A stretch of DNA of 58,255 nucleotides from an uncultured Erysipelotrichaceae bacterium (GTDB lineage Bacteria; Bacillota_I; Bacilli_A; RF39; UBA660), in contig CACZGA010000004.1 of the NCBI GenBank assembly GCA_902780585.1, positions 1-58,255 on the forward strand, in the 5' to 3' direction. The notes under the pieces are model-generated. The model was not told the DNA's origin. It saw only the letters and a list, made by a program, of their open reading frames with translations, and did not search any database. Positions 6,345 to 58,255 of this stretch are shown in pieces (within the stretch, counting starts at the first letter, position 1; every line of letters starts with the position of its first letter). Position numbers and translations under genes: made by a program.

Positions 6345-6416
6345 TGGTTTATGGTGTAATGGTAGTCACAGGGGACTCTAAATCCTTTAGTCTGGGTTCG
6401 AATCCTAGTAGACCAA
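6345..6416 (+). tRNA. suppressor tRNA, anticodon CUA, probably Gln
   Basis: A full cloverleaf can be drawn. Acceptor TGGTTTA (6345-6351) pairs with TAGACCA (6409-6415). The D-arm has GTG/CAC. The anticodon stem GGGGA/TCCTT encloses the loop CTCTAAA with anticodon CTA. The T-arm is CTGGG-TTCGAAT-CCTAG, and the discriminator is A at 6416. The CCA end is not encoded. The CUA anticodon reads UAG. The weak U1-A72 first pair is a hallmark of bacterial tRNA-Gln, so Gln is the likely charge, which agrees with TAG falling in Gln-rich contexts downstream. Confidence 0.93.
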
Positions 6417-6418
6417 CT

Positions 6419-6757
6419 ATGGAAGTAACATTTAAATATAATAATAAAATTATTACTACTCCAAATTTAGAAAAGAAATTAAAGAGAATGAAACTTCAAT
6501 TATCTGATATAGAAATAATTGAAACTCCAATTAAAAAAGAAAAACCTTCTAATGATGGAATAGAAGATTATATGAAAGATAAAGAACAAGTTATAGTTCG
6601 TTCAACTAAAGATAATATTAGAAGAGTGTGTTATGTTTTAAAAGGAACAAGACCTCCAATTAAAAAGTTATTTGAAAAACAAAAGTGGAATGGTAAAACA
6701 GGAATAAAAGATTTTACCGATAAATATTTTATGACAATGTATTATGAAGAGAACTGA
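6419..6757 (+). CDS. hypothetical basic protein directly after the tRNA
   Basis: A 112-aa basic protein, starting MEVTFKYNNKIITTPNLEKK. An open frame continues upstream to 6344, but that part lies inside the tRNA, so the ATG at 6419, two bases past the tRNA 3' end, is the real start. It includes a stretch VIVRSTKDNIRRVCYVLKG and ends in TGA. No family recognised. Because it is so close to the tRNA, 3' processing of the tRNA would leave a leaderless or near-leaderless message. Confidence 0.65.
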   Translation: MEVTFKYNNKIITTPNLEKKLKRMKLQLSDIEIIETPIKKEKPSNDGIEDYMKDKEQVIVRSTKDNIRRVCYVLKGTRPPIKKLFEKQKWNGKTGIKDFTDKYFMTMYYEEN

Positions 6758-6905
6758 TTTATTTCGTTAGCTTTATGAAGCTAATATAGATGAGATTAAA
6801 GCAATAGAACAATTATCAATAGATAATAATATGCTAGATAATGGCTACTATCTTTGGTGGCACGATCAATTAAATAAACTTTCATTAGACTCTGATAGAG
6901 TCTAA
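6744..6905 (+). CDS. small hypothetical protein, first gene with in-frame TAG
   Basis: A 53-aa protein, readable only if the TAG at codon 9 is Gln: MKRTDLFR-Q-LYEANIDEIKA and on to a TAA at 6903-6905. It overlaps the previous gene by 14 bases. The continuation is protein-like (acidic helix followed by YYLWWHDQLNKL). It is the first TAG-containing gene after the suppressor tRNA. Function unknown. Confidence 0.6.
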
Positions 6906-6951
6906 TTTTTTCAAATTACTTTTTCATAACTTTCTTTTTTTTAAACAAAAA

Positions 6952-6986
6952 AGCCCGGTAGATTAATTTCTATCGGGCTAATTTTA
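6952..6986. terminator. bidirectional terminator between converging genes
   Basis: AGCCCGGTAGATT and ATTTCTATCGGGCT form a long stem at 6952-6979, with an A-run to the left and T-rich sequence to the right. It sits between the plus-strand gene ending at 6905 and the minus-strand gene ending at 6990, so it can stop transcription from both sides. Confidence 0.85.
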
Positions 6987-6989
6987 TAT

Positions 6990-8411
6990 TTAATCAATAG
7001 GATTAAGTATCATTTCAAATTTACTGATATCGAATGTAGAATGTCCTTCATCATTTCTATTTTCATCAATTAAGAAGTCATTATCTTCAAATATAGTAGG
7101 TAATGAAACTATTCCCCAAGTTTTTCTTGGATTATTTGGATTTCCTCCAAATATATCATTTCCCCAAGGATTAACTTCTTTAACAGTTCCATTAGGATAA
7201 GTATATTTAAATGTAATCGTAGAAGCTAATTCTCCTGTATATTCTACAGTCATTTTAGGATACTTTGCACCATCAGCATTTACTGCACCTTCCCAACAAC
7301 GCTCACAATTCTCATAAATATAATTTCCATTATCATCTAATATATAATCATCAGTTCCTTGTTCTTTCTAAGCATCAGCTATAGTAGCAACTCTTTGCTC
7401 AGTAGTATTCCATAAATCCTCTTTAGTAGGAGCATTTTCCTAATCAGACCAAGCATAATACTATTCTAATACAGTATTACTATTATATGATTCTTCGTCA
7501 TTTATTAAAGCATAATATTTAGAAGTATCATTAGCTTTCTTATATTCATAATAAGTATCAATACTAGAATCAGCACATAAGGATTCAAAATTTACACTTT
7601 CACATTCTCCGTTATTATATGTTATATTTAAGAATGTAGAAAGAGATTTAGGAAGATTACTTACTTGAGTATTCTTAATATTATTAGCAATTCTCTCCAT
7701 TGCAGAGAATGTTAGGTATTTAAAAGCATTTCCATATTTATTTATGAACTTTTCAGCATAAATAGCTTTTACAACTTCTAATACAACGTCTTCAGACCAA
7801 ATATTAATTGAATATAAATCTTCACCAATACCTAGTTTAATACTATTAACTTTAAAAAGACTATCTCCTCTAGTAGCTAATCCCTAATTATAGTTAGATC
7901 CTTTTAGGAAAGATTTATCAATATATTCTTCTGTCATATATTCATAATTTCCAGGACTTAACCAGAATGGCAAAGAATTCATTACTAGTTGAACATTTCT
8001 TAAATCAAAATTATCTTTTCCTTTTAATAATCCTTTAATATAATCAAATATTTCTTGATTAAATTTATTTATGTATTTATTGTCAAAAACATCAGGATGA
8101 GATTGAACAACTTTTCCATCAACTACTTTATCTCCTTCTTCAATTAAATACTATAATGGGAAATAACGTTTAATAGTTCTTTCTGAATCTGTAATAAATT
8201 CTGCTACAATATAAGGAACTTTATCTATATAAGCTTCTGGCTGAAGATCTACTATCATTCCATCAGCTTTACTTGAATCAATATCTACTAAATAACTACT
8301 ACAACAATCTATATCAAACTTCTTCTTTTTTGATTCAATATCAAAGATTGTATCGTTTGATATGTAATAAACGTTTTTTCTCCATTTGAGATTTGTTAAA
8401 TTTTTAATCAT
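6990..8411 (-). CDS. hypothetical late protein (TAG-recoded)
   Basis: With TAG read as Gln, one frame runs from the ATG at 8411 to a stop at 6990, giving 473 aa. Read with the standard code it breaks into pieces ending at TAG (minus-strand CTA near 8150, 7886, 7460, 7440 and 7370). The N-terminus reads MIKNLTNLKWRKNVYYISND. The protein is soluble and acidic, with Tyr- and Asn-rich patches. I do not recognise it. Recoding, length and position in a late-type block suggest a virion or late accessory protein. It follows the 1122-aa gene by five bases, so both are probably on one minus-strand transcript. Confidence 0.8.
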
Positions 8412-8416
8412 AATGT

Positions 8417-11400
8417 TTAAGACATAAACTAACTATATGCTCCTAAATTTTCTCTATTAATTGTTTGTCCATTAATTGTAACTTCTTTAGAAGGAGCACC
8501 ATTATCTACTTTTTTATTTAATAAATTACCTAATTTGTTCATAGCAAAGTTTCCAGCAGCTCCGATTATACTTTGAATCGTACTTGTTCTTTGTGCAGTT
8601 TCTTGCTATTTTAATTCTAGTTCTCTTTGTTCTTTTTCCTTCTACTACTTTAAAAGTTCAGGAAGTTTTAGCTAATAATTTAACCAGCTAGTAAAAGCTG
8701 TACCTCCCATAGCATTAGGATTCTAAATTTGATTTTGAATTTCTAATCCAAACTATCCTTTTTTAACTTTCTTACTAGCAGCTTTACTCATCTTAGGATT
8801 ACTATCTAAAACATTAACTCCTGTTCTAAAAGCTCCTCCTTTCTTTAATCTAAATCTAAATTTTTGTCTATATTCTTCTATTAAAGCTTTTCTTTCTTTC
8901 CAAGCCTGTTTATATGCAGGAGTTCCTTTAGCGTGTTTAGATAATCTAAGTTCTATATTATGATGTCTTTTAGCAAATGTAGAATACTTACCTAAAACAT
9001 TCCAATCTTCTGTATCCTAAGCAGCAGTTCTTGTACTTCTTCCAGAATAAGTATGTCTAAGATCTCCATCTTCATAAGTTTCATTATACTTTGCTTTTAA
9101 CTACTAATTTTTAGAAGGAGTTTCTTTCTTTTCTTGATAACGTTCTTTAGCAGTCCTTTTCGGAGCTTTCTATTCAATCCTCTAAACAGAATTTAATTTT
9201 TTCTATAAAGGCTAAGCTTGTTTAGGATATCTTATGTCAATAGGATCAAATCCATCTAATTTTAATTCATAAGAAGGTCTTCCTGTAGGTAACTAAGCAT
9301 TTATCTAATTTTCAGGATTCATTTTATTCCAATCCTAAACAGCAAGTTTCTCAGCTGGATTAGTTGGAGGATTTTTCATATTTCCTAGTTTAGTATCTCT
9401 TACACTCAATCCAGTTTCAGATATTGATTGAGTTCCAGATGTAGGAGTTACTTCATTACCTTTAATAAATCCTTTTCCGTAAGTAACATTATCAATATTT
9501 CTAGCATTTAGTATACTTTCTGCATTACTTTCAAACGATTTTAATATATTTTTATCACCAGTTCTAAAAAATTCCTTCCATTTTCCTATATTTTTTGTTA
9601 CTATATCTTTAGCCATAGAAGGAAATTTATTAATTAATTCAAATAAATTCGGAGCTTCTTTTTCTATTATTTCAACTCCTTTATTCATTCTTCCAGGAAG
9701 AATAGTAGGAGTTCCTGTTTGTGGACCAAACTTAGCTCCTGGCTAAGGTCCTCCTTCTTTAGAACCGTAGAACAAAGCTAATGGACTATCAGAAGATCCG
9801 AATTTAGCAGCACCAAAGAAAGGCATAGATCCAATACCTTTACCAGTAGTATCTCTTCTTCTATCTACATTTGTTATTAATCCATACTAACCTTTTAGTA
9901 TTCCTCCATCTTTATATACCTATCTTTTTAATTTAAATTCTTCTATAATACTTCCACCAAGACGATGTTTGAAGTGTCTTGCGTTGTCAGCAAACGTAGC
10001 TCTCTTTACTAAAGTAGGATTACCAGAAGCTTTAGCTTTTCTAATACATTCATCTGTTACTTTACCTCCGCAATAATCTGTGAACTTTCCTCTATTTTCT
10101 TTTTTAATATGGATTCCACTTCCTTTCTTTAAAAATTCTAATACATTCATTTTACCTCCTTGTTTCTTTTTGTATAAAAATGGGTGTGGTATAATTATCT
10201 CTCCGTTAACCACTTTAGCATCAATTCCTCCATACGGATTAACCCAATTATGAAAGGCTTCTAAAAATTCCTACTATGTAGCTTCTCCTGTTTTAGTTTT
10301 TTCTAATAAATCTGAAATAAATTTATTATCAATACTTTGACTATTAAATGTAGTAAATCCATCAGGAGAATATCTTAGATAATATGGACTATTTTCCCTG
10401 TTAGCCTATTTTAATAAAGCTAAATATGAATCAGTAGATAATCCGTCTTCCCTTCTTTTCCATTTTTCAGGATGCATTAACTAATTCCTAATATCTTCCC
10501 AAGTAGTACGTCCTGAACCAATAATATTCCCATTATTATCTTGTCTATATCCTTTTTTAGAAAGCTCTTTAAACTATCTTATTAAAGTAGCTCCTTTTGG
10601 TAACATTCCTTCATCTCCAGATAGATAAACACCAGGACGCAAACTCTATTGTACTCCACTCCAAAAATCTCGCATTATATTTTTACTTATTCTAGGAGAT
10701 TGAGTTTCTATTAATGTTTTTTTAGCTAACTCCTATTCTGGTGTTTCCGTAATAAAATGTACAGCATCATTTTTTGGGGCTGTTAAAAATATTTTACTAT
10801 AACCATGTCTACCAGATCCAGCAGAAGCTTCTCCTACCCTAATATTGAATTCTGGAGAAATATTAAACATCCTATAAGAGTTATAACCAATTCCAAAATT
10901 TCCATTTCCGTCTGTAACTAATTCATAAGTTCCTCCATTTGGCCTATTCCAGGCCCAAGATAATCTTCCACTAGAAGGAACTCCATCATCAATAAGCTAT
11001 CTTAAGGCAGAAATATTTCCATTTGGAGATACCCATGATGGTTCAGCAGTTTCCATATTAATTGTGGGAAGTTGTCTATGCTAACCACTATTTATATACT
11101 GATTTAAATCTTCTAAAGCATCTTTCTAAAATCTATTTAAATTAGTTTTTTCATGTTTAGTTAATCCTAATTTTGTAACTAAATCTATTTTAGAAGGTCT
11201 TTCAAAAAATTTTAAAGAAGTTAATCCAGATTCATTCTATTTAACAACTGGCTAATATAATAAAGAAGTAGCTTGTGAAGTTATTGTAGGAACAGTTCCA
11301 TTAAAAGAATTTTTAAAAGCATTGCCTACAAAATATCCTCTTCCCCAATTTCCTAATTGAGTAGTAGGAGCATATTTAGCAATATTCCATAATCCAGTTT

Positions 11401-11785
11401 TAGCTAAAGCTCCGATTCCATTTAATCCTACTCCTCCTACATAAAATGAAAGAAGAGGATCTGCTCCAGACATTCCAACAATTTGAGGTCTCTATTCATA
11501 TTCATCTTTTTTACCTCTAAGTTTTTCTGATATAGTAACTTTTCTTTTAAGAGTAGGACGCATTTCCATTCTAGATTTTATTTCTTCTTCTTTTCTTTTT
11601 GCTTCCTATTCCTAATACTACTAAGCCTAAACTCCTTCTTCTCTATATCTATTTCCTCCAGAATTATTCATTCCAGGAACTCTAATAACTTGACTTTCAA
11701 GCTAAGCTATTTGTTCTGGAGTAAATTTTATTCTTAGTGGATCTCCAGCTGCAGTCTGCATCTTTCTAATCTATTTTTTATTCAT
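8417..11785 (-). CDS. large late virion-associated protein (TAG-recoded)
   Basis: A 1122-aa frame, start ATG at 11785, stop TAA at 8419-8417, rich in TAG (the first at codon 5, MNKKQ). Separate standard-code fragments at 11252-11473, 9920-10213 and 9335-9688 all lie in the same frame, which confirms one gene. A central segment (about residues 545-610) has the pattern KKGSGIHIKKENRGKFT, then two Cys, then KRATFADNARHFKH. I recall this pattern from virion-associated proteins of gut Bacteroidota phages. The C-terminal part is Lys/Arg-rich and helical, ending near GAAGNFAMNKLGNLLNKK, which could contact membrane or DNA. The exact role is unknown; a virion cargo or tail-associated protein is the best guess. 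Confidence 0.8.
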
Positions 11786-11932
11786 ATTTTATATAAAGTG
11801 TTAAATTTAAACTATTTATCTTATTCAAAAACTTGATTTTTGTATTTTTAAATATTATTTATTTTGACATCATTAAATGTATCAATACTTTAGAAAAGAT
11901 AAAAATTATTTTAATTAAATGATAAAACAAAT
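11786..11932. promoter_or_regulatory. divergent late promoter region
   Basis: A 147-base A/T-rich gap between the minus-strand 1122-aa gene and the plus-strand late cluster. It probably holds both late promoters. On the minus side TTAACACTTTATATA stands just before the ATG, resembling TTAACTTT-ATATAT stretches before other late genes (40219, 48060). Confidence 0.4.
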
Positions 11933-12610
11933 ATGATTTTAGAATGGATTAAAAATGTGTGGGAGTTTATAAATAAAATCCATCCTGAAACAAGAAGTTT
12001 AATAATTATTATACTTTTTGGGTGGATGATGTACTCACAGATAACAACTGAAACTGCAAAGTAGATAGATGAAAAACACAAACAAGAAATTGTTAATAAT
12101 AAAAGAGCTGAAAGATACTCTAGAGAAAAAGCTATTGATATTAATGAACAAGTTCAACAAATAGCTGAAATAGATTAGGACGCTTTTGATGTATTACTTT
12201 TAAATTATCATAATAATACTCAAAGTTTACAAGGTTACAAATATTTATATTTATCTTGTCTCACCGAAGCTCCGAGATCATTAGATACTCCTACTTTACA
12301 ACAGTAGTGGAATAAATTAGACTATATATATTACGCAGACGAACTAGCAAAAATACACGGGCAAAGTTTTGTTAAATTTGAAAATATTGAAGATATGCAA
12401 CATAATCTTCCAAAACTTTATAGATTAGTAAAAGCAAGCGAAACAAAAGCAGTTTCTTTCTTTACTATAGAAGGACACGATTCACAAATTGGATTAATTA
12501 TTATATTTTATAATGACTCTAAGAAATATGACTATAAATATGCAGGAAGAATTTTACCACACATTTAGAAACTTGCTTTGTTGTTAGATTATGATAGAAG
12601 TAACAAATGA
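11933..12610 (+). CDS. membrane-anchored protein next to the amidase, possible holin/spanin function
   Basis: A 225-aa protein with four in-frame TAG. It has one clear N-terminal membrane segment (about residues 22-40, RSLIIIILFGWMMYSQI), followed by a charged helical stretch (about 45-75) and a soluble domain. It overlaps the amidase start (ATGA at 12607-12610), the usual sign of a lysis pair. A single N-terminal anchor with a coiled stretch suits an inner-membrane spanin-like or signal-anchor role; a classical holin usually has more membrane segments. The family is not recognised. Confidence 0.65.
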
Positions 12611-13212
12611 AAACAATTATATTAGGAACAGCTCATTTAAAAAGTACACCTGGAAAATGTTCTCCTGATGGAAAATTTAAAGAGTATGAATATTCTAGAG
12701 AAGTATGTAAGGCTATAAAACTAATTTTAAATAATTTAGGATATAAAGTTTTCATTGATATAGAAGATGATGATTTAAATGTTACACAATCTTAGGAATT
12801 ATGTCTAAGATGTAAAGTTGTTAACGATTTATAGAAGATTTATGGGAATTGTATATACATTTCAATTCATGTGAATGCATCATCTTCTGATGGAAAGTGG
12901 CATAATGCTACTGGATGGGAAGCTTATACTTCTGTAGGAGTAACATCAGCAGATAGGTTAGTTAAATATTTATATGATGCTGCTGAAAATAATTTATTAG
13001 AAAAGAAGATAAGAAAAGACTTTTCAGATGGAGATTCTGATAAAGAATCCAATTTTTATGTTCTTAAACATACTTTATGTCCTGCTGTACTAACAGAAAA
13101 TTTCTTTTAGGACAATAAAGAAGATGTTGAATTTTTAACAAGTCCATTAGGATTTCATTAGATAGTGAGAATTCATGTAGAGGGAATACTAAAATATATA
13201 CAAGATAATTAA
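12607..13212 (+). CDS. N-acetylmuramoyl-L-alanine amidase (Amidase_3), endolysin
   Basis: A 201-aa zinc amidase that would cleave the bond between muramic acid and the stem peptide. Visible motifs are ILGTAH with the first metal His (H10), an acidic YEYSRE segment supplying the Glu ligand (about E28), SIHVNAS with the second His (H88), and LTENFF with the catalytic Glu (E164). The length fits a stand-alone Amidase_3 catalytic domain. Four TAG codons must be read as Gln; without them the gene is cut into fragments at 12795 and 13110. There is no signal peptide, so release would depend on a membrane partner, probably the preceding gene. Confidence 0.9.
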
Positions 13213-13240
13213 GTACAATATTTAAAATGTTATATGTTAT

Positions 13241-14146
13241 ATGGAATATGATAAAATTAATAAAGATGTAGGATTTATAGAGAGTACTCATACTTATAAA
13301 AATTTAAAAGACGATTCTATACAATATACGTCTGTTACTACAATGATTGGTAAATATGAACCTGAATTTGATAAAGAATTTGTCTCAAAATATAAAGCAA
13401 TCGAAAGATTATTATCTCCTTCTGATTGGAAAAAAGAAAAAGGAGGTTTATGGAGATCTAAGAAAATACCTAAAGATTTTTTAGAAGTATATAATATATC
13501 AGAGAATGAACTTAATCAAGTTCAACAAGACATTCTCGATGAATGGGCTAAGATTAATAAAGATTCTTGCGAAAGAGGAACTAAAATTCATTCTCAATTG
13601 GAAAATTCATTCTATAAAGCTGGTTCCAATATTACTTTAAAAAAATTTGGAATTGGAGGTAAATTTGAATGTAAAAAGAATTATAATGACTTAGACTTGG
13701 AATATGGTATATATCCAGAATATTTAATTTATTATGATGATCCTAAATTAGATTTACATATTGCTGGACAAATTGATTTATTAGTTAAAAACAAAAATGA
13801 TATTCACATCATTGACCACAAGAGTAATAAAAAAATCGACTTAAAAGGATTTTATAATAGTTCTACTAGAACAACAGAAAAACTAAAATATCCTTTAACA
13901 AACTTAGATAATTGTAATTTTAATGTTTATCAACTTCAATTATCTACTTATGCTTGGATAATTCAAAAAATTAATCCAAAGTTTGTTATTAAAAGTTTAA
14001 CTCTTAATCACTATGATCATGATGGAAATAATACACTTTATCCATGTTCATATTTAAAAGATGATGTAGAAAAAATGTTAAAGCATTTTGCTAAACAACA
14101 AAAATTAGAAAAACAAAAACAAAAGTATGCACGTATAGAATATTGA
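13241..14146 (+). CDS. PD-(D/E)XK family nuclease
   Basis: A 301-aa protein with a RecB-like nuclease core: an upstream Glu in ERGTKIHSQLE, then IAGQIDLLV (D179), HIIDHKSNKK (D192-x-K194) and a conserved-style QLQLSTYAW helix. This is the E...D...DxK...Q signature of the PD-(D/E)XK superfamily. It has no internal TAG and ends in TGA. It could take part in DNA processing, recombination or packaging; crAss-like phages often carry such a nuclease near the late genes. The next gene begins 20 bases before its stop. Confidence 0.85.
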   Translation: MEYDKINKDVGFIESTHTYKNLKDDSIQYTSVTTMIGKYEPEFDKEFVSKYKAIERLLSPSDWKKEKGGLWRSKKIPKDFLEVYNISENELNQVQQDILDEWAKINKDSCERGTKIHSQLENSFYKAGSNITLKKFGIGGKFECKKNYNDLDLEYGIYPEYLIYYDDPKLDLHIAGQIDLLVKNKNDIHIIDHKSNKKIDLKGFYNSSTRTTEKLKYPLTNLDNCNFNVYQLQLSTYAWIIQKINPKFVIKSLTLNHYDHDGNNTLYPCSYLKDDVEKMLKHFAKQQKLEKQKQKYARIEY

Positions 14147-14342
14147 TGAAAGACAAAGGATATGTAATGAATGTCCTATTTATAATCCCGGAAAAGGAAT
14201 TTGTAATCCTAAATTATGGGTTAATCCAGATACTAATGAAGTAAGTACACATGCTAAAACAGGATTTATCCAAGGATGTGGATGTATATTAGCAAGTAAG
14301 ATAAAGAATTTATCTAATCATTGTGTTGCAGGGAAATGGTAA
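14127..14342 (+). CDS. small zinc-ribbon-like protein
   Basis: A 71-aa protein with one TAG (codon 4, MHVQ). Its cysteines are arranged as CNECPIY, C in GICNP, GCGC and a last C before VAGKW, which looks like one or two zinc-binding knuckles. It overlaps the nuclease gene by 20 bases and the next zinc-ribbon gene by one base. The partner is unknown; it may bind nucleic acid or act in head assembly. Confidence 0.7.
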
Positions 14343-14557
14343 TGACTCTCTTTAAAAAATTACGAAATATAATAATAGGTAACTGGAGAAACTTAACTGG
14401 TTACACATCAGATGAAACTAAACGTAGAAGATAGATATGTAATAAATGTGATTCAAATATAGGATTTGCTGGAATAAGATATTGTGAACAATGTGGTTGT
14501 CCAATAAAATCTAAGACTACAGTTGAATCAGAAAAATGTTTAATGAATAAATGGTAA
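14342..14557 (+). CDS. second small zinc-ribbon-like protein
   Basis: A 71-aa protein with one TAG (RRRQ). It has CNKC and CEQCGC clusters about 20 residues apart, a C-x2-C...C-x2-C zinc ribbon, and a basic N-terminus. The C-terminus ends NKW, as in the preceding gene (GKW), and the spacing (ATG overlapping the previous TAA) suggests the two are translated together and may be related. Confidence 0.7.
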
Positions 14558-14558
14558 T

Positions 14559-15149
14559 ATGGAACAAAGACCTATTTTAAGTGAGAAAGAAAAAATAGCA
14601 TTGATGAATGCTGGAGATAGTACAAGTAGGATAATGACCTTAGATGGAACTACTGCAGATGATGTAATTCAACAAAGACGTACTAAAGAATTTAATAAGC
14701 AAGTTGATGCTTATGTTGAAAAATTAAACGAACATTCAGCTAATTTAGAGGAATATTCAAAACAAATAGCAGAGAATGTTGAATCAATAGAAATAATGCC
14801 TATCGGTCCATATATAATGGTTAAGTTGTTTGATGAAAATCCATTCCAAAGAATTGTAAGAGACGATAAATCAGGATTAATTCTTGACTTAGGTGGACAG
14901 AAACCTCAATATAAGAATACTGATAACGGACAAATAGAAGAAGAAGAGAACTTTATAAAAGTTGGAGTAGTACAAGAAGTAGGTCCAGAATGTAAATATA
15001 TACAACCTGGAGATACTATCTTTACAACTAAACCATCTTTAGTTCCAATTCCTTTCTATAAACAAAACTTATATCAAGTTGCTGAAAATAGAGTTATGGC
15101 AGTAGTTAATGAAGGACTTACAGAAAGATTTAAAAATTTAAAGAAATGA
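14559..15149 (+). CDS. GroES/Cpn10-like protein
   Basis: A 196-aa protein. Residues 1-70 are helical and charged. Residues about 75-190 follow the co-chaperonin pattern: IMPIGPYIMVKLFD (the P-x-G-x-x-x-V-K strand), SGLILDLGG, VGVVQEVGPECKYIQPGDTIF, and YQVAENRVMAVVN at the end. Phage T4 gp31 is a known phage co-chaperonin used for capsid folding, and a similar role is possible here. The mobile-loop region is less clear, so this is a fold-level call. No internal TAG. Confidence 0.55.
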   Translation: MEQRPILSEKEKIALMNAGDSTSRIMTLDGTTADDVIQQRRTKEFNKQVDAYVEKLNEHSANLEEYSKQIAENVESIEIMPIGPYIMVKLFDENPFQRIVRDDKSGLILDLGGQKPQYKNTDNGQIEEEENFIKVGVVQEVGPECKYIQPGDTIFTTKPSLVPIPFYKQNLYQVAENRVMAVVNEGLTERFKNLKK

Positions 15150-15370
15150 TGAATGACGAGAAAATATACTTCTCTCCTGGTTAGAGAGTAATCTTAAAAT
15201 AGGAGATTGATTACAAACCTATAATGGTTGTATAGAAAGTAGAAAGAAATATTATTAGAAATAGAGAAGGTAATGATTTACTTAGAGGGATCAAATGTCG
15301 TTGGTTTACAAAAGATGGATTCTTATAGGAAGCAGTCTTCTCTACTAAAGATTTAAAATTAATTGATTAA
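15146..15370 (+). CDS. small hypothetical late protein
   Basis: A 74-aa protein with four TAG codons (GQR, KQE, VQK, LQE contexts). Two consecutive ATG codons (15146 and 15149) are possible starts and overlap the previous stop. The sequence reads as a small beta-rich domain (YFSPGQRVILKQEIDYKPIM). Function unknown; it lies in the block leading to the terminase. Confidence 0.65.
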
Positions 15371-15375
15371 CTACT

Positions 15376-16011
15376 ATGGATGAAAATAAATTAATGATAC
15401 AGTTCCTTTCTGAAGAATTAGGAACAAATGATCCAAAGAAAATTTAGAACTATTTAAAAGGATTAGATGAATCTAAACAAAAAGCTTTAGCACAAAAATA
15501 CCAATAGTGGAAAGAAGCTAAGAAAAAGAAATAGGCTACTAAAGCAGCTCATGGTGCTAAATTAGATTATATAAAATCACTTAAACATATTTGTCCAGAA
15601 GGAGAAGAACTTGTTTATTTTAAACAAGGAGGTTCTGTAAAATGTGGTTGTGTAGGAAAGAAGTTAGAAGAAGGAGCTAAAGTTAAAAAGGCTTCTACTG
15701 GAGCTGTTACTAGATTTAAAGAAGGAAAGAAAGTATCAAATAATGATTCTACAAAAATTGTAAATGCTATAGGTACTATCACTGGAACTAAATCTGGATT
15801 TGATAGAGCAGCTAAAGAGAAAAAAGAAAAAGAAAGAAAGCCAGTAACTAATGTTGCAACTTAGGATAAGAATCCTGGTTCTACTAAACAACCTATGCTA
15901 GAAGCTCTAGAAAGACAACACCATAAGAATAATTATAAAAATTTATAGAGTGGTGGAGCAGTAGCCAAATTTAAATCTGCTAAATGTGGTTCTAAAATGA
16001 AGAAAAAATAA
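15376..16011 (+). CDS. Cys-containing conserved late protein
   Basis: A 211-aa Lys-rich protein with five TAG codons. A segment CPEGEELVYFKQGGSVKCGC (about residues 75-94) resembles a C...G...YF..GG...C.C pattern that I recall from many gut Bacteroidota phage proteins. A second Cys/Lys cluster ends the protein. It is probably virion-associated and DNA- or membrane-interacting because of its strong positive charge, but the role is not known. Confidence 0.7.
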
Positions 16012-16032
16012 TTAGTTAAATAAATATGTAAT

Positions 16033-16611
16033 ATGAATATATGGGATTATGATTAGAAAACTGGAAAAGCAGTATTAGTTACTGCTGATTTAGTTTTAAT
16101 TGATGAATTTAAAAAACTATTAGAACCCTCAAGAAATAAATGTAAAGAAGATTCTTCTGGATTAAATCATATCCGAGCAGATAAAGAATTTACTTATATT
16201 TATCTTGCTATTGATTGGAAATCTCCTTATAGTGGATTTTCTAATTAGGAAAAACACGAAGCAGCTTTATAGGATGCAGAATTAACTGAAGAAGAATGGA
16301 ACGATCCCACATTTAGAGCTGCTTGTCGAAAATATGTTGCTTTGTAGGATTCTAATAGATATGTAAGATTATTACACGCAAGTTAGGAAGTAACTGATAA
16401 AATTATAGATTACTTTGAAAACTTAGATTTAAATGCTACAGACGATTAGGGTAAACCTTTAGTTAAAATTGCAGATATTCAAAAAGCAATGGATTAGTCA
16501 GTTAAGTAGATTGAATCTTTAAAATAGATTGAAGCTCTTGTTAAGAAAGAACTTACCGAACAAAGCTAGATTCGTGGTGGTGCTGTTGAAGGATTTATGC
16601 CTGATGTATAA
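16033..16611 (+). CDS. conserved protein upstream of terminase
   Basis: A 192-aa protein with ten TAG codons, one of the most TAG-rich genes for its length. It starts MNIWDYDQKTGKAVLVTADL and has a coiled C-terminal part (about 150-180) in which several Gln are all TAG. It overlaps the terminase start by one base (TAATG). The position suggests a role near packaging, such as a small terminase or an assembly factor, but no small-terminase DNA-binding motif is visible, so function stays open. Confidence 0.75.
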
Positions 16612-42508: not shown

Positions 42509-42509
42509 T

Positions 42510-43180: not shown

Positions 43181-43182
43181 TC

Positions 43183-48080: not shown

Positions 48081-49106
48081 ATGGAATTAGGAATTGATGA
48101 TTTGTATGATGATGATGATGAGGTAATTGAACCTTCTAGTCAAGTTGTTAATTAGGAAACTAATCCAGAGCCTTCTCAAAATCAAGAGATTTCTCACGAA
48201 GAAGGTAGTGTGATTGAAGATTTCTTAAAAAGTAGAGGAATAGATGATCCTACTAGAATTAGATTTGAAGATGAAAACGGAAATATTGAGGAAAGAGACT
48301 GGAATACTTTATCCAAGGAGGAGTAGTTCAACATTTTGAACACTCCCCTCTCTTCTTCTGAAGAACAAGATAATTATGATGTTGGACTTACAGATGATGA
48401 GATAAATTTGATTAATTAGATAAGAGAAAGTAATCTTAGTCCTTCTGACTATATACAATAGTTACAAGGTCAGTCTGCTGAACCTCAATATAAAATTGAT
48501 GATTTATCCGATGATGAAATCTATTTATTAGATTTAGAAGATAGAGTCGGAGAATTATCTGATGAAGAAGCTGCTTAGGCTTTAGCTCTCGCTAAACAAA
48601 ACGAGTAGTTATTCTAGAAACAAATAGAAGGGATTCGTAAAGAATATAAAGAGAGAGAAGAAAACTAGACTAAATTAGAAGAAGCTCAAAGAGAACAAGA
48701 AGAATAGGAAATTTATAATTAGTTCCAATCTTCAATTATTAATGCCATTAAAGATTTTGATAATGTTGGTAGCTTTGATTTAAACTTTGATGAAAACGAT
48801 AGAAACGAATTAGCCTAGTTTATGTTGGAAAAAGATGAAACTGGAAATAATTATTTATGGCAAGCTCTACAGGAACCAGAAACCTTAGTAAAAGCAGCAT
48901 GGTTTATTCTTAACGGTGAAGAGGCTTTTGAAAATATTTCCGATTATTTTACAAGTTAGATAAAGCAAGTAGCAGATACTTAGTACAAGAAAGGTTTAGA
49001 AGACGGAAAAAATGGAAAAAGTCCTAAGCCTACAGTTATAATTAATAAAAATAACAACAATCATCGCACATACAATAGTATAGAAGATTTAGACGATGAT
49101 GATTAA
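48081..49106 (+). CDS. scaffold-like protein
   Basis: A 341-aa, very acidic, helical protein directly before the MCP. It starts MELGIDDLYDDDDEVIEPSS and has coiled coils around residues 170-215 and a basic C-terminal tail (KPTVIINKNNNNHR). This is the usual layout of an internal scaffold. It has about thirteen TAG codons, against one in the MCP behind it. It ends 15 bases before the MCP start. Confidence 0.72.
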
Positions 49107-49121
49107 ACATATAAATGATAT

Positions 49122-50543
49122 ATGAGAATTGCTAGTTTTGTTTCTAATATCCCTACTATGGACGATACCCGTACATATGAGGATTTTTACAAGTATTTAG
49201 GTGATAAACCAACAAGACTTGGTGTTGTAAGTAGAATGTATCCTAATAATACTGCAACTTTTATCACTGAATCTTTGAAAAACATTTTCCACTTAAGCAA
49301 AGGAAATAACAACAGATATCAATCTGTTAATTCTCTTATGTATGAATGGGAAATTGAAACTAATTATATTAAGAGAATTGAATTTGCTGCTGTACCTGAA
49401 GGCGATGGTGCAGGTGGTACAGAAATCGTAATGGCTTTCCGTGAAAGATATTATGCAAAGTTTGATACCTTTAAGATTGAAGATAGTGGTCAGCAATGTT
49501 TCTGCTTAACTAATCCTATTAGAAAAGGTGACAATTATTGGGAATAGACTGTAAGATTAGTTGATAATAACTATGATACAGTTCTTGATTTAAGTGCTTG
49601 TCAACCTGGAGCAAAAACACGTTGGATTTCTAACTATATGCCTGAATTACATGATGAAGGTCATGTTAAATGGCAGAGCAATGTTGAAAGACATCGTGGT
49701 TATTTAAGCACACACAGAAATGATGCTTCTTATTCTGCTTTATATGCTGCTTATGAAGATAGATTCATTAAGATTGCTGATGATAAAGACGGAAATAAGA
49801 AAGAAACTATTTACAGACTTGATAAATTAGAGAAGAACTTACTTGAAAACTTCTTAACTGCTAGAAACCAAGCTTTAATGTTCGGTAAGAGCAATATTGA
49901 TGCTAATGGTAAGCCTACAATCGTAAATCCTGAAGATAATAGACCTATTTATATGTCAGATGGTATGATTCCACAATGTGAAGCTTTCTGTAATAAATAT
50001 GTTTATAACAAACTTAATATTACAACATTACAAACAGTTATTGGAATGTTAAATGAAAAGGCTGATAACGAAACAGGTAACCACTACTTATTCGTTTGTA
50101 ATACTAAGTTCTGGCAAGATATTTACAGAGTACTTGGAGATTATCTTGCTCAATTCCATACTGATGGAAACTATCTATGGTCTATGAAGGCTAATGGTTA
50201 TGTATCAGTTGGTGCAGAAGGATTTGATACATTTAAGTATGCAGGTAATTCAATTACCTTCAAAGTTGATAGAGCAATGACATTAGAGTATGGCAATGCT
50301 AAGGGTTATGCTTTAGCAATTGACTTAACTGGTAATGCTACAAGCGCTCAACCTCCTGTTGCAATGTTCTCACTTAAGGGTGCTGACATGGTTACTAACA
50401 AATATGTTGGTGTAGGTGGACTTGATGGTGTAAGTTCTGGAGAAGTTGCTTCACCAGTAGCAGGAAGTAAGAGAATTGTATGGGGTTATTCTTCTATTGC
50501 TGTATTCAACCCATATAAGTCTGCAATACTTAGAGAAGTTTAA
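49122..50543 (+). CDS. major capsid protein
   Basis: A 473-aa protein with the expected length and position, after the scaffold-like gene and before connector genes. It starts MRIASFVSNIPTMDDTRTYE. Motifs include YMPELHDEGHVKWQSNVERH (about 175-194) and GSKRIVWGYSSIAVFNPYKS near the end, a typical crAss-type HK97-fold capsid shape. A single TAG occurs at 49545-49547, whereas eleven Gln are CAA/CAG. A strong terminator follows at 50569. High expression is expected. The HK97 fold is inferred from family and context. Confidence 0.85.
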
Positions 50544-50568
50544 TTAATTTTATAAAATTAATAGATAA

Positions 50569-50615
50569 TATTGGAATAGCTACCTCTTTAATGAGGCCTA
50601 TTCCAATACATTTTT
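50569..50615 (+). terminator. terminator after major capsid gene
   Basis: TATTGGAATAG (50569-50579) pairs with CTATTCCAATA (50598-50608), with inner ACCTC/GAGG-type pairing, followed by ATTTTTA. It ends the capsid transcript. Confidence 0.85.
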
Positions 50616-50633
50616 ATGATAATATGAAATAAT

Positions 50634-51470
50634 ATGGCAAATAAGAAAGAAGAAATTAATATATCTAATAAGATAGTCCTTAGGAATGTAAGAGGTAAGG
50701 TAAATGTGATTAAAATACAACCTTGTCCTGATCCTAATACTGGTAGCTATCCAGATTGTGTAAAAAGAATTAATTCGAGTGGTGATATGGTTCTTTCTGA
50801 GAAAGAGTTAGCTGATCCAAATAGACCTTACTTTATCAGAGAAGATTAGATTTTTGATATTGTAGATGGAACCACTTTTGATTTAGATAATGTTTAGGAA
50901 AGATTTATTTGGGAAGCTATAAAGAATTGTCCTTTAATTGCTCCGGATATGTATGCTAAAGATAGAAACGGAGACTCTCTTATAAACGGAAATGCTAATC
51001 GTTATGGAGTAGCAGAACTTTATATAGAAAGACCTGGTGTTGAAGCATACAGAAGAATTTCGAAAAAGAAACTTAAGCATGATGCTGAGTCTTATATTTA
51101 TAATGATGATAGAGGAGCAGAAGGAAGAGTTCTTAAAGCTAAACTTCTTGGACACAGGATGGATAATATGCCTGATGCCGATGTAACTGACTACTTACTA
51201 CAAGTAGCAGAACAAGATCCAGAAAAGATTATTAATCTTTATACTGGAGGAGATACAGCTATAAGATTATTATTTATAGAAGCAAGAGATAAACATATAA
51301 TTAACTTCAAGAATAAGCTGTATATTTATGCAGATAATGTGGTATTAGGTGCTACCGATGAGGCTGCCATATTATATCTGAAAGATCCTAAAAATGCTAA
51401 TGTTTGTAAACTTATTAAACAAGATACTTTTCCTGAATTAACAGGAAAATCCGATAAAAAAGAGGATTAA
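50634..51470 (+). CDS. head/connector protein
   Basis: A 278-aa protein with two TAG codons. It starts MANKKEEINISNKIVLRNVR and contains CPDPNTGSYPDCVKRINSSG. It lies right after the MCP, where crAss-like phages have a conserved capsid-associated or head-tail connector protein. It ends in a Lys-rich tail. Function is inferred from position only. Confidence 0.65.
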
Positions 51471-51514
51471 AAGAGGTTAATTTAGGTATAATCAATTAAA
51501 TAATTGATGATACA

Positions 51515-52519
51515 GTGACCACAAGACAATTATACGAAGGTGTATTAATTGAGCTTAATAAGGAAAATGCTCCTAATATATTATTAGAAGATTTTAACTA
51601 CTTTGCTAATAAAGCAATAAATAATTATGTCAATAAAAGATATAACATTTATGATGTTAATCAACAAACTACAGACGATTTAAGAGTACTTAAAGCTACA
51701 GCATTATTGAAACCAACATTAGTTACAGATTATGTTGGAATGACAATGGCTGGAAATAACAAAATGGCTACATATGAGGTTATAATGCCTCCTGATTATC
51801 TTCATATTCTTAATTGTATTTGTATTTATAGTGTAAAGAAAACTTATAAATGTTATAATGCAGGAGATACTTGGAGATCTGCAGCAAGACGTTTAACTGC
51901 TGATATGTATTCTCAGGTACTTGATAATTTCTGGAATAAACCTACTTATAAAAGACCTTATTATTATATACATAATGTAAATACTAGTAAAGATACATCT
52001 GCTTCTGGAACAGTTACTCGTGCAACAGTTCCAACTAATACTAAAACAGACGAAACTCCAACTACAACATATTAGAGTACGGCTTTAGGAAATGACGGAA
52101 ATGGTAATGCAATTAAAACTGCAGGAAGTAAAGGAAAAACTCTAACAATTGGAGGTGGTGCTACTAGTAATGTAGAACGTGGTTAGGCTATTCGTTATGG
52201 TAATGTAAGTGAAGTTCGTCTAGAAATTAGATATGGTACTGATAATTCAGTATTTGAATTAACTGATGTATATGTTGATTATATAAAAGCTCCTCAAAAT
52301 ATACGCCTTACACAATTAGAAATTGATAAAACAGAGGATATTTCACAAATGTTAGAATATCCTGATTATGTTTGTCAAGAGATTATAAATGAGCTGGTAC
52401 ACTTAGTCATGGAAAATATTAGTGACTAGAGACTTCAAACACATCCAGTAGTTACTTAGTCTATTGCAAACCCGGCTCAACAATAGACAGAACCTGTGGC
52501 TCAACAATAGCCAACTTAA
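51515..52519 (+). CDS. head-tail connector/structural protein
   Basis: A 334-aa protein with six TAG codons. GTG at 51515 is the most likely start: the upstream in-frame TAA at 51497 limits choices and no ATG lies between. The N-terminus TTRQLYEGVLIELNKENAPN is helical, as in phage connectors (gp6/HK97-like). The end is Gln/Pro-rich, much of it TAG (AQQQTEPVAQQQPT). It lies between the capsid-associated gene and a large structural gene. Confidence 0.65.
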
Positions 52520-52533
52520 AAAATTAATTAAGT

Positions 52534-53601
52534 ATGTTTGAATTTACAACTTAGACTGTTTTTAACAAGATTGTTAAAACAACTGAAAATGACGTAAGAA
52601 GCAAAAGTGCTCCTAAAGGTTATAACGTTATTGTTAAAGATACTGCAAAAGGACCAGAAGTAAGAATCGGTAACACAAGATTTAATCATGATAATGTTCT
52701 TGATATCCAAGTTAAGAATCATACACCTGAAAATCTTGCTAAAGCTGAAGTTGATTTAGCTAAACTTATTAGTCTTGTAACTGCTGATAGTCAAGACGTA
52801 CAAGAAGGAAGTTATAGAATTGTTCTTTATGTTGGACTTTCTATGAATTCTCAAGATTCTTTCTATGCTAATCCATTTGTTTACAAAGGAAAGCCATTAT
52901 TTGTTGAATTTCCTATTACAGCAGCAGATACAGCTGAAACAGCTGCTGCTAGATTAGTAAAAATCGCTAATAAATATTTACTCTTCACAGCACAAGAAAA
53001 GATTCTTGATGTAACTGCTGATGAAGGTGTAGTTACATTTGAAGGAACTAATGGATATCAAGTTTTCAAACAAATCCTTGTTTAGAAGTACGATCCAAAT
53101 GCTTCTCAAATTGATTGTTGTAATAATAATGGTGATTTTGTTACAATTATGAAGGGTGTTCCTGTTACTTATACTGTTGATTCTTCAACTGGTGAAGTAA
53201 CTGTAGGAGAAAAAACATTAGATTTTGATGGACTTCGTGATCTTGCAGATGACGAAATTGCTATCGAACCTGGTATTGAAGCATTCTTAGACTATAATTG
53301 GATGACTCATAATCTTAGACTTCCAACTTTAGCTAATACTAACTGGTGGACAGCTAACAAGTCTGAATTACCTGTTGTTGGAGGAGAATATGTACAATTC
53401 ATTATTAGAATGTGTGCTAAGAGATTAGGAGTTTCTGGTTCAGTTGTCGGACATGAAACAACTTCTGTTACAACTCATGTTTTCTATGTTTTAGACTAGG
53501 GTAATAATGTTGCTACATTAAAGCAAGCTTTAAATTCTTTAGGAACAGCTAATACTGATGCTGATGATGCATTAGAAGATCCTTATGCTGGAGTTCAGTA
53601 A
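52534..53601 (+). CDS. abundant-type structural protein (tail or capsid)
   Basis: A 355-aa acidic, Ala/Val-rich beta protein with three TAG codons. It starts MFEFTTQTVFNKIVKTTEND and has even codon use like the MCP. Low TAG count suggests high expression. A strong terminator follows at 53620, as with the MCP. It may be the auxiliary capsid or a major tail protein. I cannot tell which from sequence alone. Confidence 0.65.
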
Positions 53602-53619
53602 TTTATTGTATATTAATTA

Positions 53620-53659
53620 AGCTAGGCCAGACCTGTTAGGTCTAGTCTAGCTTTTTTTA
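53620..53659 (+). terminator. rho-independent terminator
   Basis: AGCTAG (53620-53625) pairs with CTAGCT (53647-53652), with inner AGACC/GGTCT, followed by seven T. Strong. Confidence 0.88.
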
Positions 53660-53666
53660 GTTTTAT

Positions 53667-54392
53667 ATGGTTTGGACATCAATTAGTAAATTAGCAGATG
53701 CAATATTTAATGATGTAGTTTCTGGTATTCGTGGTTATCACTAGACTATTTCTCTATCTAAACATTAGTTAGAAGAAGAAATAGTACAAATGCGTTTGTT
53801 AATTATAAAAGAATATATGATGCAAGGAATACTTCCTATTTAGGATTTATTGTTATCAATAAATTGTATTCCTGTAGATTGTGACAGTTTAGATAAATGT
53901 GGATGTAATGCTAGTAATTGTGGAAGTGATCCAATAGCACATTTTCAAATTCCATAGTTACTTTTTGATTATGGTCTTAAAAAATCTATATATTATCTTG
54001 GAACTGTCGATAAACAAAGTCCATTTATAGTTTATACAAAACCGTTTGATGTTATTTCTACAATTTAGAAATATAGAAAAAGAGGAAAAAATAGACCTTG
54101 GGTATATATTGATGTAACTCCAAATTAGGAAGGATTACTTGATTGTTATATCTTTAATGCTCCATTAATAAAGCAAGTTTCAATAATAGCTATTTTTAAA
54201 GATCCTAGACAATTAGAAGAATTTCAATGTGATTGTTAGAGTGATTCAGAAGTTGATAGAGAAACACAAATGGATAATAATTTTAATTTTTTAGATACTG
54301 TTATAAAGGAGAGACTTACTAAATAGAAATTATATTATTATAGATAGATGGCTGCTCCTTTACTTCCTAACGATTAGAGACCTGCTTCATAA
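53667..54392 (+). CDS. late structural protein with Cys cluster
   Basis: A 241-aa protein with ten TAG codons. The N-terminal 60 residues are helical; a Cys cluster INCIPVDCDSLDKCGCNASN (about 70-89) may bind metal. Position and spacing suggest a tail-related protein in the crAss-like set. Confidence 0.65.
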
Positions 54393-55090
54393 TGAATAAT
54401 TTTCACTATATTTCAGTATTATTGGATTTACTCTATGGTATAGAAATTGAAGATCAAGATATGGAAGAATTAGGTCTTTTAGCTTGGAATTTAATTGGAA
54501 ATAAAAATACCAAATTATATAGAGTAAGATTATGCATAGATCCTAAAGATAATTCTATTACTCTTCCTTGTAATGCAATAGGTGATGAAGGTTGTGTAGA
54601 ATTAGTAACTTCTTCTTGGGAAGATTGGGAAAGAGTTACAAATAAAACATGGAATGGAGATTTAAATTCAGCTTTTGTAGAAACTGCTATAGAGGCTGAA
54701 AAAGTTTATCAAAGTCCGTGGTATATGCCAGGAAAAATTCTTAAGTACGAATAGTCTGGTGATAAATTATATTTTACACATAATTATGGGACGGTAAATG
54801 TATTATATAAAGGGATATTTGCAGATGAAGATGGACTTCCTCAATTAACAGATAAGGAAGCTACAGCAATAGCAACTTATATAGCATATATTTTAAAATT
54901 TAAAGAGTCTTTAATTACTAATAATTAGAATATAGCTAATTAGGCAGCGATGATTAAAAATCAATGGTTACAACAATGTGACTAGGCTAGAATTAGTTAT
55001 CTTAATTAGAATGACTTTAATAATATATTGGATATAACTCATTCTTGGGGACGTCATGTTTATGGTAAAGGCTCAAAAATGATTAAATAA
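54392..55090 (+). CDS. late structural protein
   Basis: A 232-aa protein with five TAG codons. The first 120 residues are mixed alpha/beta (SVLLDLLYGIEIEDQDMEEL); the rest is helical, ending SWGRHVYGKGSKMIK. It overlaps the previous stop by one base. A tail or connector protein by context; family not recognised. Confidence 0.65.
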
Positions 55091-55091
55091 T

Positions 55092-55541
55092 ATGAAACAT
55101 TATGCTACAGGGTGGGCTTGTAATTTAAATGATATTTTTGTAAGGTTTCCATATGAAAAATGTAAATCCTTAATGACTAAATTTAAAACTAAACAACTTC
55201 GCAGATAGAAAGTTAAACAAGTTTTTAGAGAAGGTATTTAGTAGGTTCTTGAAGATATTGTTGAAAATAATATAACATACAAAATTCAAGGAGTAGGTTA
55301 TCAAGGAGGAGAACTTCATATGGAAGCCATTACAGGTCCGGAGTTTGAGAAAGTTAGATAGAAAGGAAAATTCGAAGATGTTGATTTTTTAGAATCAGTA
55401 TTTACAGGATTTCAGTTATATTTATATATTCACGGAAAGAGGGATAATTTTCTACATAGAAGAAAGTTTCCTGTTTATATAAGTTCGTTCTTAAAGAATA
55501 AACTTACTAATTATACTAATCAAGGAAAGGTATATTGTTAA
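55092..55541 (+). CDS. small basic late protein
   Basis: A 149-aa basic protein with four TAG codons, including a TAG-TAG pair (GIQQVLEDIV). The sequence GWACNLNDIFVRFPYEKCKS opens it. It may bind DNA or fit into the connector. It starts one base after the previous TAA. Confidence 0.65.
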
Positions 55542-56108
55542 ATGAAAATAAAGAATGTTAATGATTATGTTGATTCAGTTCATGAGAAATTTCCAGAATT
55601 AACTAGAGAGGAAGTAAAAAGAATTTTAGTTTATGGATGGAAAATGATAATTTAGTATGTAAGTGCAGGCAATGATGTTTCAATGATGACTCGTGAAAAA
55701 TTTATGTTTATTGGAATGATTCCGAAAAGTGGATTGGCTGCATTCAAAACATATTGTTATAAGTTATCGAAGAGAATAGCTTATATGTTTAAAAGAACGA
55801 ATTCTGAATGGGATGGATATTATTACTTTACACGTAGTGAACCTTAGTTTAAAGAATATCTATCTTAGTCTAGAAAGTAGTATAAAGTTTTCAAAGATGT
55901 ATATCTTTTTAAACTTCTTGAGGAATTGAGAATTAAAAATCCATGTTCGCCATATATTTTTAGATTAAAAGAATAGAAAACGAGATGGATGTCAAAATAT
56001 TATAAAGAGATTAGAACAAAAAATGCAGAACTTATAACAGTTCGAGATGCTTTAACTATGAATGATGTAATGACTTCATACAACAAATTTAAATATATAC
56101 AACAATAA
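55542..56108 (+). CDS. conserved late protein before giant tail gene
   Basis: A 188-aa basic helical protein with five TAG codons. KFPELTREEVKRILVYGWKM (about 16-35) looks like a short DNA- or protein-binding helix pair. It starts directly after the previous stop and overlaps the giant tail gene by one base (TAATG). Confidence 0.65.
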
Positions 56109-58255
56109 TGGAACAAGCTGTAAATCAATTTAATAAAGGACTTTAGAGCGATACCCACCCAATGGTTCAGGGCAATGATACACTCTCCGATGCTCTAAAT
56201 GCTACTTTTGTCACAATGAATGGTAATGAAGTAGTATTACAGAATGATATGGGTAATAGGAGAGTAGATAATGCATTTCTTCCATCTGGATATGAACCAG
56301 TTGGAATAAAGGAGTATGGAGGAATTATATATGTTGCTTCATATAATCCAATAACTAACAGAGGACAAATTGGAAGTTTTCCGTCTCCAGAAAGAAAAAT
56401 AAATTCTTTAGACGATGAAAGTCTTGGGTGTGAATTTAAATTATTTGATCACTTCTATGATCCATCAATAAATCCTATAAGATTTATAAAATCTGATGTT
56501 GTTTTACTTCAATTAACAAGTGATACATCACTTCACGCTGGGGATAAATTTGCAATTTATTCTGATCAAATAACTACTTGGGGTTAGTATCTTACAAATT
56601 ATTATAATACATTTTATGATAAAATTATAACTCCGAAAAATAAACATTTAACTCTATCTGTTGGAATATTAAATTCTTAGAATTAGTTTGTTGATATAAC
56701 TAAAAATTTAAAAAGATGGACTACTAAATCTAAATAGGAATTAGTAGGTACGGAATTTATAATGAAACATTGGTCAGAAGAAATAAAATATACTGATAAA
56801 CGCTCGGAAGATTATATATTTAATGATGGATATTTTATTTCTAGATATAATATCGATGATAACTCTGAATATACACAAGATGATAGGGATTTAATAAGAG
56901 AAAGACAAGTAGTTACAGCTAATACTTATTCTTACAAATTAGTTGGTCCTTTATATTTAAAAGTTCAACTTAATCATATTCAAGAATTTAGTTTTGATAT
57001 TTCTGGAGATAAAGAACCAATTGAAAGAAGTAATAATAATAAGATAACATTATATATTACAGCTGATATAACATACAATTGTCCTGATACTGCAGGATAT
57101 GGTACATCGAATTCCAGCAAGTATCAATTTTTAAATGATGGAAAAATAAAAGATTGGATTTCTTCTGATTCAATAGATGAAGATGATTCAACAGATTATT
57201 GGTGGCCTTTTGATTTTTATATTAGACAAAGTGGAAATTATGTAAAAGAAACATCAAGAATAAAGTCTGTAACATTCACTAATCCTGTATATGATTATGA
57301 TACAGGGTTATATAAAACAAAGGCTACAATGAAATGGGTACATAATAGTTTCTATGGAGATGATCGCAACACAAAATTATATTATTTTATAGGAGTTGAT
57401 TCAGGTATCCCCCACGATAAAGTAAATGACATAGAAGGAGAATTACATCCATATTATATAGAAACATTATCAACTTACGGTTCAATAGATATAACTAAAC
57501 TCGGTAGCGGAGAAATAAATTTAAAATCATTTAGATTCTTTAATAATGATGAATCTACTACAATAACATATGTATTAGAAGCTTATCCTAAGGTTAATTA
57601 GAAGTTTAATAGTATATCTATGACATTTGTAAATGTTATGGATCCAGTTCATTCTTTTACATATAGTAATCTTCCAGTTAATAATGGAAAAAATATTGTA
57701 ACTATAGATTGGGAAAATAAAATAGAGAGTAGACAATTATATAAAGTATATATTACTGCATATGATAATACTAGAGGATATAATTTAGACAATAGATGGT
57801 TTTTAAGTACAAAATTATTTAATGATTGTTATAATCCATAGTCTTAGAATTTTGTTGAAGATTTTGGTCCTAAAATATATACTCCAGCAGATCCTGAATA
57901 TAATAGTAGTTATGGAATTTTATATAATAAATTAAGAGTAAAACTAAAATTAGAAACAAATCATTTATCAAGAGGAACTGTTACAAAAGGTGTTACTAAT
58001 GGAAATCTAATAGAGGATAGTTCAAAGAAATATATTAAGTATTATTCAGAAAATTTATATAAATTAAATGAAACAATTAATGATTATCTAAAAATAGATA
58101 ATGAAGATTTATATCCAGAAGGAATTTATATTGCTACTAGTAGTCCGTTAATACCTGTAAAAGAGGCTGTGCTTAAAAGAGATTTCGAAATAGAAACAGC
58201 AAGTAATGGTAGTGAAGTTTCAGTAGAAAATGATACTAAATTAAAATTAAACTTT
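56108..58255 (+). CDS. giant tail protein, N-terminal part (runs off window)
   Basis: At least 716 codons with no stop to the right edge when TAG is read as Gln; eight or more TAG codons. Near the N-terminus is MVQGNDTLSDALNATFVTMN followed by MGNRRVDNAFLPSGYEPVGI and KEYGGIIYVASYNPITNRGQ, a motif block I recall as highly conserved at the start of the large tail protein of crAss-like phages. The region after about residue 160 is a series of beta domains. It probably forms part of the tail hub or tube. Confidence 0.8.

Follow-up and report, generated by a model that had tools for sequence, protein, structure and literature searches.

Predicted TAG-to-glutamine recoding and an amber suppressor tRNA in a crAss-like phage contig

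The contig CACZGA010000004.1 (assembly GCA_902780585.1; 58,255 nt, hereafter the window) was binned with an uncultured Erysipelotrichaceae bacterium and carries a tRNA gene with anticodon CUA, followed by a long right arm in which TAG appears to encode glutamine. The terminase large subunit (TerL) matches named Crassvirales by tblastn, and a crAss-type TerL, portal protein and major capsid protein (MCP) are all found, matches that support a crAss-like identity. The features on which the argument turns are:

6345..6416, plus strand: amber suppressor tRNA, anticodon CUA (ARAGORN; Rfam RF00005, 56.8 bits; sequence)
6744..58255, no strand assigned: predicted recoded region of ~40 genes, TAG = Gln, 326 in-frame TAG (coding density, per-gene counts, residue test)
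6744-6905: first recoded open reading frame (ORF)
16611..18947, plus strand: TerL, 9 TAG (phrog_6681, E 9e-72)
19209..21386, plus strand: portal protein, 18 TAG (phrog_6547, E 4e-47)
29223..36272, plus strand: 2349-aa protein, 46 TAG, no internal TAA or TGA
49122..50543, plus strand: MCP, single TAG at codon 142 (phrog_11589, E 7e-11)

Coding capacity and the residue at TAG

Coding density, calculated from non-overlapping ORFs of at least 90 aa, is only 0.278 across 6744-58255 under table 11 but reaches 0.950 when TAG is read as sense, compared with 0.320 for TGA and 0.545 for TAA as sense. For the whole window the value rises from 0.315 to 0.922, and the interval 4401-6743 gives 0.878 under every code that retains TAA as a stop. 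Peters 2022 (PMC9523058) assigned code-15-type phages among 5-100 kb contigs by a coding-density gain above 10% with TAG as sense, and the window shows such a gain. Reading TAG as sense likewise raised coding density over table 11 in all 44 IMG/VR stretches examined; the gain was large in most of them but slight in L107 and L112.

Right-arm genes contain 326 in-frame TAG against 431 CAA/CAG, making TAG about 40% of all Gln codons (326 against 454 over the full gene set). When called with TAG as sense, all complete right-arm genes end in TAA or TGA, and a TAG terminator is never needed. Three short table-11 ORFs that end in TAG at 56162-57841 are in-frame pieces of a single ORF, with starts at 56162, 56762 and 57620 spaced by multiples of three, and the joined ORF extends past the contig end. 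The 2349-aa gene lacks any internal TAA or TGA, where ~154 would be expected of a random frame of the same composition (ln P(0) ~ -160). A sequence-only reading of this DNA had proposed that TAG is in frame and never terminates from 6744 onward, naming a comparison of code 11 with code 15 as a check and TAG at true gene ends in the right arm as contrary evidence; the density values and gene ends bear the proposal out, and no TAG end was found among right-arm genes called with TAG as sense. It had also joined nine fragments of the 2349-aa gene in one frame. Eight of the nine table-11 ORFs (at least 60 aa, plus strand) do share that frame, but the ORF at 33163 does not. Judged from sequence, the recoding of the window is real, as are its boundary, the Gln residue, the tRNA and the differences in TAG use from gene to gene.

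The identity of the inserted residue was assessed by aligning TerL, portal and six other proteins with up to 32 IMG/VR relatives and scoring every TAG by how the remaining rows of its column compare with background. The 49 TAG of the window favored Q with +34.2 log10 odds, followed by K at -3.7 and E at -3.9, and every other residue was negative; over all rows (935 TAG) Q scored +502, E -3 and K -79. Control runs with Q, E, K, R, Y, W, S or L as the target each recovered the correct residue. On this test pyrrolysine at TAG was rejected. Furthermore, a coiled coil encoded at 26797-27717 contains repeats of the form SLqGDV and SLQGDV (q denotes TAG), so that a single heptad position is filled now by TAG, now by CAA/CAG; the sequence-only reading had noted that TAG falls where coiled coils need Gln. 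The TAG at MCP codon 142 aligns with Val or Cys in three relatives and lends no support to Gln from that site.

Both ARAGORN and Rfam place the CUA tRNA at 6345-6416, with acceptor pairs U1-A72, G2-C71 and G3-C70, discriminator A73 and anticodon loop CUCUAAA. Identity features of E. coli tRNA-Gln include the same U1-A72, G2-C71 and G3-C70 pairs. A Gln-like suppressor with U1-A72 had been correctly recognized, and it does lie upstream of the first recoded ORF, although not immediately before it: a TAG-free 112-aa gene (6419-6757) stands between the tRNA and 6744-6905. Overall, the TAG-column alignments, the Gln-type acceptor and the coiled-coil repeats support the decoding of TAG as Gln proposed earlier.

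Standard-code genes, uneven TAG use and a model of decoding

The tRNA resides in an operon of early type, and genes on both sides of the recoding boundary avoid TAG as a sense codon:

3585..4058, minus strand: left-arm gene 4058-3630 with a probable TAG end, plus intrinsic terminator 3606-3585
4575..5303, plus strand: replication-initiation-like protein (HTH_36/DnaD), standard code, TAG-free
5306..5866, plus strand: MUG113/T5orf172-domain protein, TAG-free
5915..6280, plus strand: 121-aa protein upstream of the tRNA, TAG-free in the window, conserved in the slot
6419..6757, plus strand: 112-aa protein, TAG-free, starting 2 nt after the tRNA and conserved beside it in most relatives
13241..14146, plus strand: PD-(D/E)XK-type exonuclease, TAG-avoiding within the recoded arm, 0/13 TAG
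14559..15149, plus strand: GroES-like protein, TAG-avoiding, 0/13 TAG

Within the operon (4575-6757) none of 23 Gln codons is TAG, versus 326 of 757 in the right arm (Fisher p=4e-6). Predicted structures of the 112-aa and 121-aa neighbors gave no significant fold match. Farther left, the minus-strand gene 4058-3630 is followed by a terminator with a 9-bp stem and a run of seven T, ~24 nt past its TAG, and in the relative L110 the homologue carries TAG at the corresponding position. Judging from this one gene and its homologue, the TAG at 3630 is probably a genuine stop beyond the recoded arm, which would fit expression of the gene without the suppressor.

TAG use is heterogeneous among genes (chi-square p=7e-7). 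Across homologues, the TAG share of Gln codons is high in TerL (32%) and portal (30%) and low in the exonuclease (3%) and the GroES-like protein (1.4%). MCP has TAG at 1 of 12 Gln codons in the window and at 0 of 48 in three relatives. Since MCP is a late, abundant protein, we infer that a decoding cost at UAG explains the avoidance there better than timing does by itself. The literature searches made found no earlier report of TAG avoidance in MCP, which is not proof of absence.

We consider it very probable that the window represents 58 kb of a large, as yet unclassified crAss-like phage whose own suppressor reads UAG as Gln from 6744 rightward, in competition with release factor 1 (RF1). 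The tRNA would be made from an early-type, standard-code operon whose TAG-free genes could be translated at once, and, charged with Gln, would read UAG in the genes from 6744 rightward against the RF1 of the host. Most late genes would require the suppressor, so that full-length late proteins would appear only after the tRNA has built up. Near-avoidance of TAG by MCP, probably the most heavily translated gene, would fit a UAG that is read less efficiently than CAA. We infer the timing, the competition with RF1 and the charging, by glutaminyl-tRNA synthetase (GlnRS) or by glutamyl-tRNA synthetase (GluRS) plus GatCAB.

Several observations weigh against this model. The suppressor has discriminator A73, versus G73 in the bin's own tRNA-Gln, and a GlnRS model search of the bin's genome (1.75 Mb) returned no match; if the bin were the host, charging would need GluRS and GatCAB. 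The homologue of the 121-aa gene in C20 (L068) contains two TAG, so the absence of TAG from early genes is not absolute in relatives. Some late genes, MCP above all, use little TAG, and a simple rule that late means TAG fails.

Alternative explanations differ in what they make of the codon itself. TAG might be a leaky stop, with short proteins made first, a minority of full-length product arising by read-through and no true reassignment of the code. The presence of an RF1 gene in the bin's genome would fit, as would inefficient UAG reading suggested by TAG avoidance in MCP and early genes, and leakiness may describe an early phase of infection. With up to 46 TAG per gene, however, full-length product would be negligible at low read-through, and TAG falls within conserved stretches of TerL and portal and makes up the ~40% share of Gln codons noted above; we regard this explanation as very unlikely. 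Slightly fainter still is the chance that TAG specifies another residue (pyrrolysine, Lys, Glu or Tyr). ARAGORN does label the tRNA as tRNA-Pyl, a label it gives to any CUA tRNA, and K scores as high as Q in single rows with few TAG sites (L054, L105), but the window-wide and all-row scores separate Q from K and E, and the tRNA is an ordinary bacterial cloverleaf with a Gln-type acceptor. That the host itself uses TAG as Gln and the phage simply follows is the least credible of these proposals. It draws on the host not having been identified; yet the contig's left arm and early genes are TAG-free, one left-arm gene probably ends at TAG, and an RF1 gene is present in the bin to which the contig was assigned.

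The provenance of the bin bears on the host. Its RF1 points to Bacilli of the ruminant gut and is 94% identical to the RF1 of a rumen Erysipelotrichaceae metagenome-assembled genome. Because crAss-like phages mostly infect Bacteroidota, the presence of a phage contig in this bin may be a binning error. A TerL scan of genome contigs for named hosts confirmed nothing. Two other contigs from the same bin, L068 (G000:C20, positions 1-2900) and L069 (G000:C69, 2057-6934), contain CUA tRNAs of other builds together with tRNA clusters, and L068 also has homologues of the tRNA operon of the window; more than one recoded phage appears to have been binned together.

The suppressor slot in relatives

Relatives that have the 121-aa and/or 112-aa neighbors carry a CUA tRNA at the same place. 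Between A73 and the 112-aa gene downstream the spacing is 2 nt in the window, L106, L107, L109 and L111, 3 nt in C20 and longer in L105, L108, L110 and L062; L035 gave no match to the 112-aa gene. The tRNA in this slot comes in several builds: U1-A72 in the window, L106, L111 and L062; a U1·U72 mismatch in C20, L105, L108 and L109 on one body type and in L107 and L110 on another; and, in L035 and L063, a long variable arm combined with an acceptor of Gln type (slot neighbors of L063 unchecked). TAG scores as Gln in the rows with enough sites, namely L035, L036 (the contig on which L108 lies), L040 (that of L109) and L063, and L105 offers too few informative sites.

A further element sits immediately upstream of the tRNA:

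6316..6341, plus strand: hairpin directly 5' of the suppressor tRNA (RNAfold, last 60 nt before the tRNA)

Most relatives also have a hairpin near this position, built on a different stem sequence, but in L109, L110 and L062 it is weak or missing. The loop AAAGGCAT is shared by the window, L068 and L107, and L105 has AAAAGCAT. No theta (HDV-like) ribozyme was found directly 3' of the tRNA, where Rfam gave no ribozyme match and no dedicated theta-motif search was made; a ribozyme directly at that position is excluded because an ORF begins at 6419, 2 nt after A73.

Identities along the slot are discordant. L108 and L106 share 92% in TerL and 84% in the 112-aa gene but only 59% in the tRNA, and L109 and L105 share 96% in the tRNA but only 76% in the 121-aa gene. 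The tRNA alignment rejects the TerL topology in an approximately unbiased (AU) test with nine taxa (p=4e-5), and a stricter test with seven slot-verified taxa and variable-arm columns removed gave p=0.03. We tentatively propose, at somewhat short of an even chance, that the suppressor locus is an exchange site at which whole tRNA genes are replaced between fixed flanks while TAG = Gln is kept. The driver would be pressure that acts on the body of the tRNA rather than on the code, for example from host defenses aimed at tRNAs or from shifts in the charging enzymes of the host. Vertical inheritance with very fast divergence and no replacement would account for the same slot differently; it finds room in the shortness of the tRNAs, in the p of just 0.03 from the stricter test and in the L035 long-arm tRNA, which is 86% identical to the window tRNA outside the arm. 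Against it stand the two discordant pairs and the nine-taxon result, and we judge it unlikely. The tRNAs are too short for a firm count of replacements, and convergence or fast divergence may instead account for the pattern. The literature searches made turned up no description of a suppressor slot that stays syntenic while its tRNA body changes, which again is not proof of absence.

Known recoded phages and other elements of the contig

Yutin 2021 (PMC7886860) described TAG to Gln in crAss-like phages with a suppressor tRNA, restriction to late genes and suppressor gain, and Peters 2022 (PMC9523058) verified TAG = Gln through mass spectrometry peptides in two crAss-like phages. The recoding seen here is thus ordinary for the order and already documented, as the sequence-only reading had remarked for some crAss-like phages; apparent slot turnover and capsid avoidance are what is newly added. 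The window shares with those phages TAG as sense in late genes, a partly standard code, a CUA tRNA and the TerL/portal/MCP set, and differs in that its tRNA occupies a fixed early-operon slot 2 nt before the conserved 112-aa gene. In TerL it belongs to a clade apart from the sampled Suoliviridae and Steigviridae, with long branches, and the phage record collection yielded no direct DNA match to its right arm.

Zeta crAss-like phages (proposed Echekviridae) show TAG or TGA suppression, among them S22M_St_77 with a CTA tRNA and amber suppression (PMC12386605). The relatives resemble them in contigs of 136-193 kb, in TAG suppression and, in some, in interrupted TerL or MCP matches. Zeta genomes are ~145-192 kb with many tRNAs, whereas the window is a 58-kb fragment and the collections searched held no recognized Zeta reference; in six relatives' records searched, tRNA matches numbered 25-42 in four and 4-5 in two. 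MCP and TerL matches are split or partial in L122-L127 and L062, the pattern to be expected where large crAss-like phages carry introns or inteins. The suppressor tRNA of the Burzaovirus genomes cr7_1 and cr124_1 (Suoliviridae), among the nearest record matches, is 79% identical to the window tRNA over its whole length, with U1-A72 and CUA, but belongs to another crAss family and has a dUTPase as its neighbor. In these two Burzaovirus records (L130 and L131; NC_055895.1 and NC_055899.1, positions 296-367) the annotated tRNA-Gln has anticodon CUA and is an amber suppressor; the label was perhaps given by isotype. Theta ribozymes have been reported beside gut-phage suppressor tRNAs (PMC10879173), a system that likewise ties a phage CUA tRNA to TAG to Gln and from which the window differs in having no room directly 3'.

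The left end of the window (1-4300, higher GC) was considered as a chimera with the phage and ruled out, since L110, part of a 108-kb contig, keeps homologues of the left end, the tRNA slot and regions further right in the window's order. Positions 540-845 are ~81% conserved with L108/L135 (~570-660 nearly invariant) and ~70% with L134, adjoin a conserved leftward ORF at 48-536 and, given similar identity in all reading frames, are probably non-coding.

The minus strand of 1040-1810 specifies a large structured non-coding RNA of ~750 nt. Aligned with L110, it gave an RNAalifold value of -168.6 versus -77.6 (sd 8.4) for shuffled columns, with 30 pairs changed on both sides. A 147-nt covariance model found a third copy in the distant phage L224 (E 6e-17), with which 22 of 49 pairs are changed on both sides (0 of 500 shuffles as high). 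The adjoining stretch of L224 matches Rfam GOLLD at E 1.3e-12, below the gathering score, and contains a tRNA. The window copy has no Rfam match; on the strength of the L224 neighbor, the RNA is probably a divergent GOLLD RNA. A RAGATH-1 hammerhead ribozyme above the gathering score lies at L136 1871-1959 and was not detected in the window, where the matching place is ~2018-2106.

These findings extend code-15 recoding to a lineage for which the phage record collection offers no close match, and they add sequence constraints, in the form of TAG-tolerant versus TAG-intolerant genes and the location of the suppressor. The near-exclusion of TAG from the capsid gene and from early-type genes argues for a decoding cost beyond a timing switch. 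At one locus the body of the suppressor tRNA appears to turn over while the code stays fixed.

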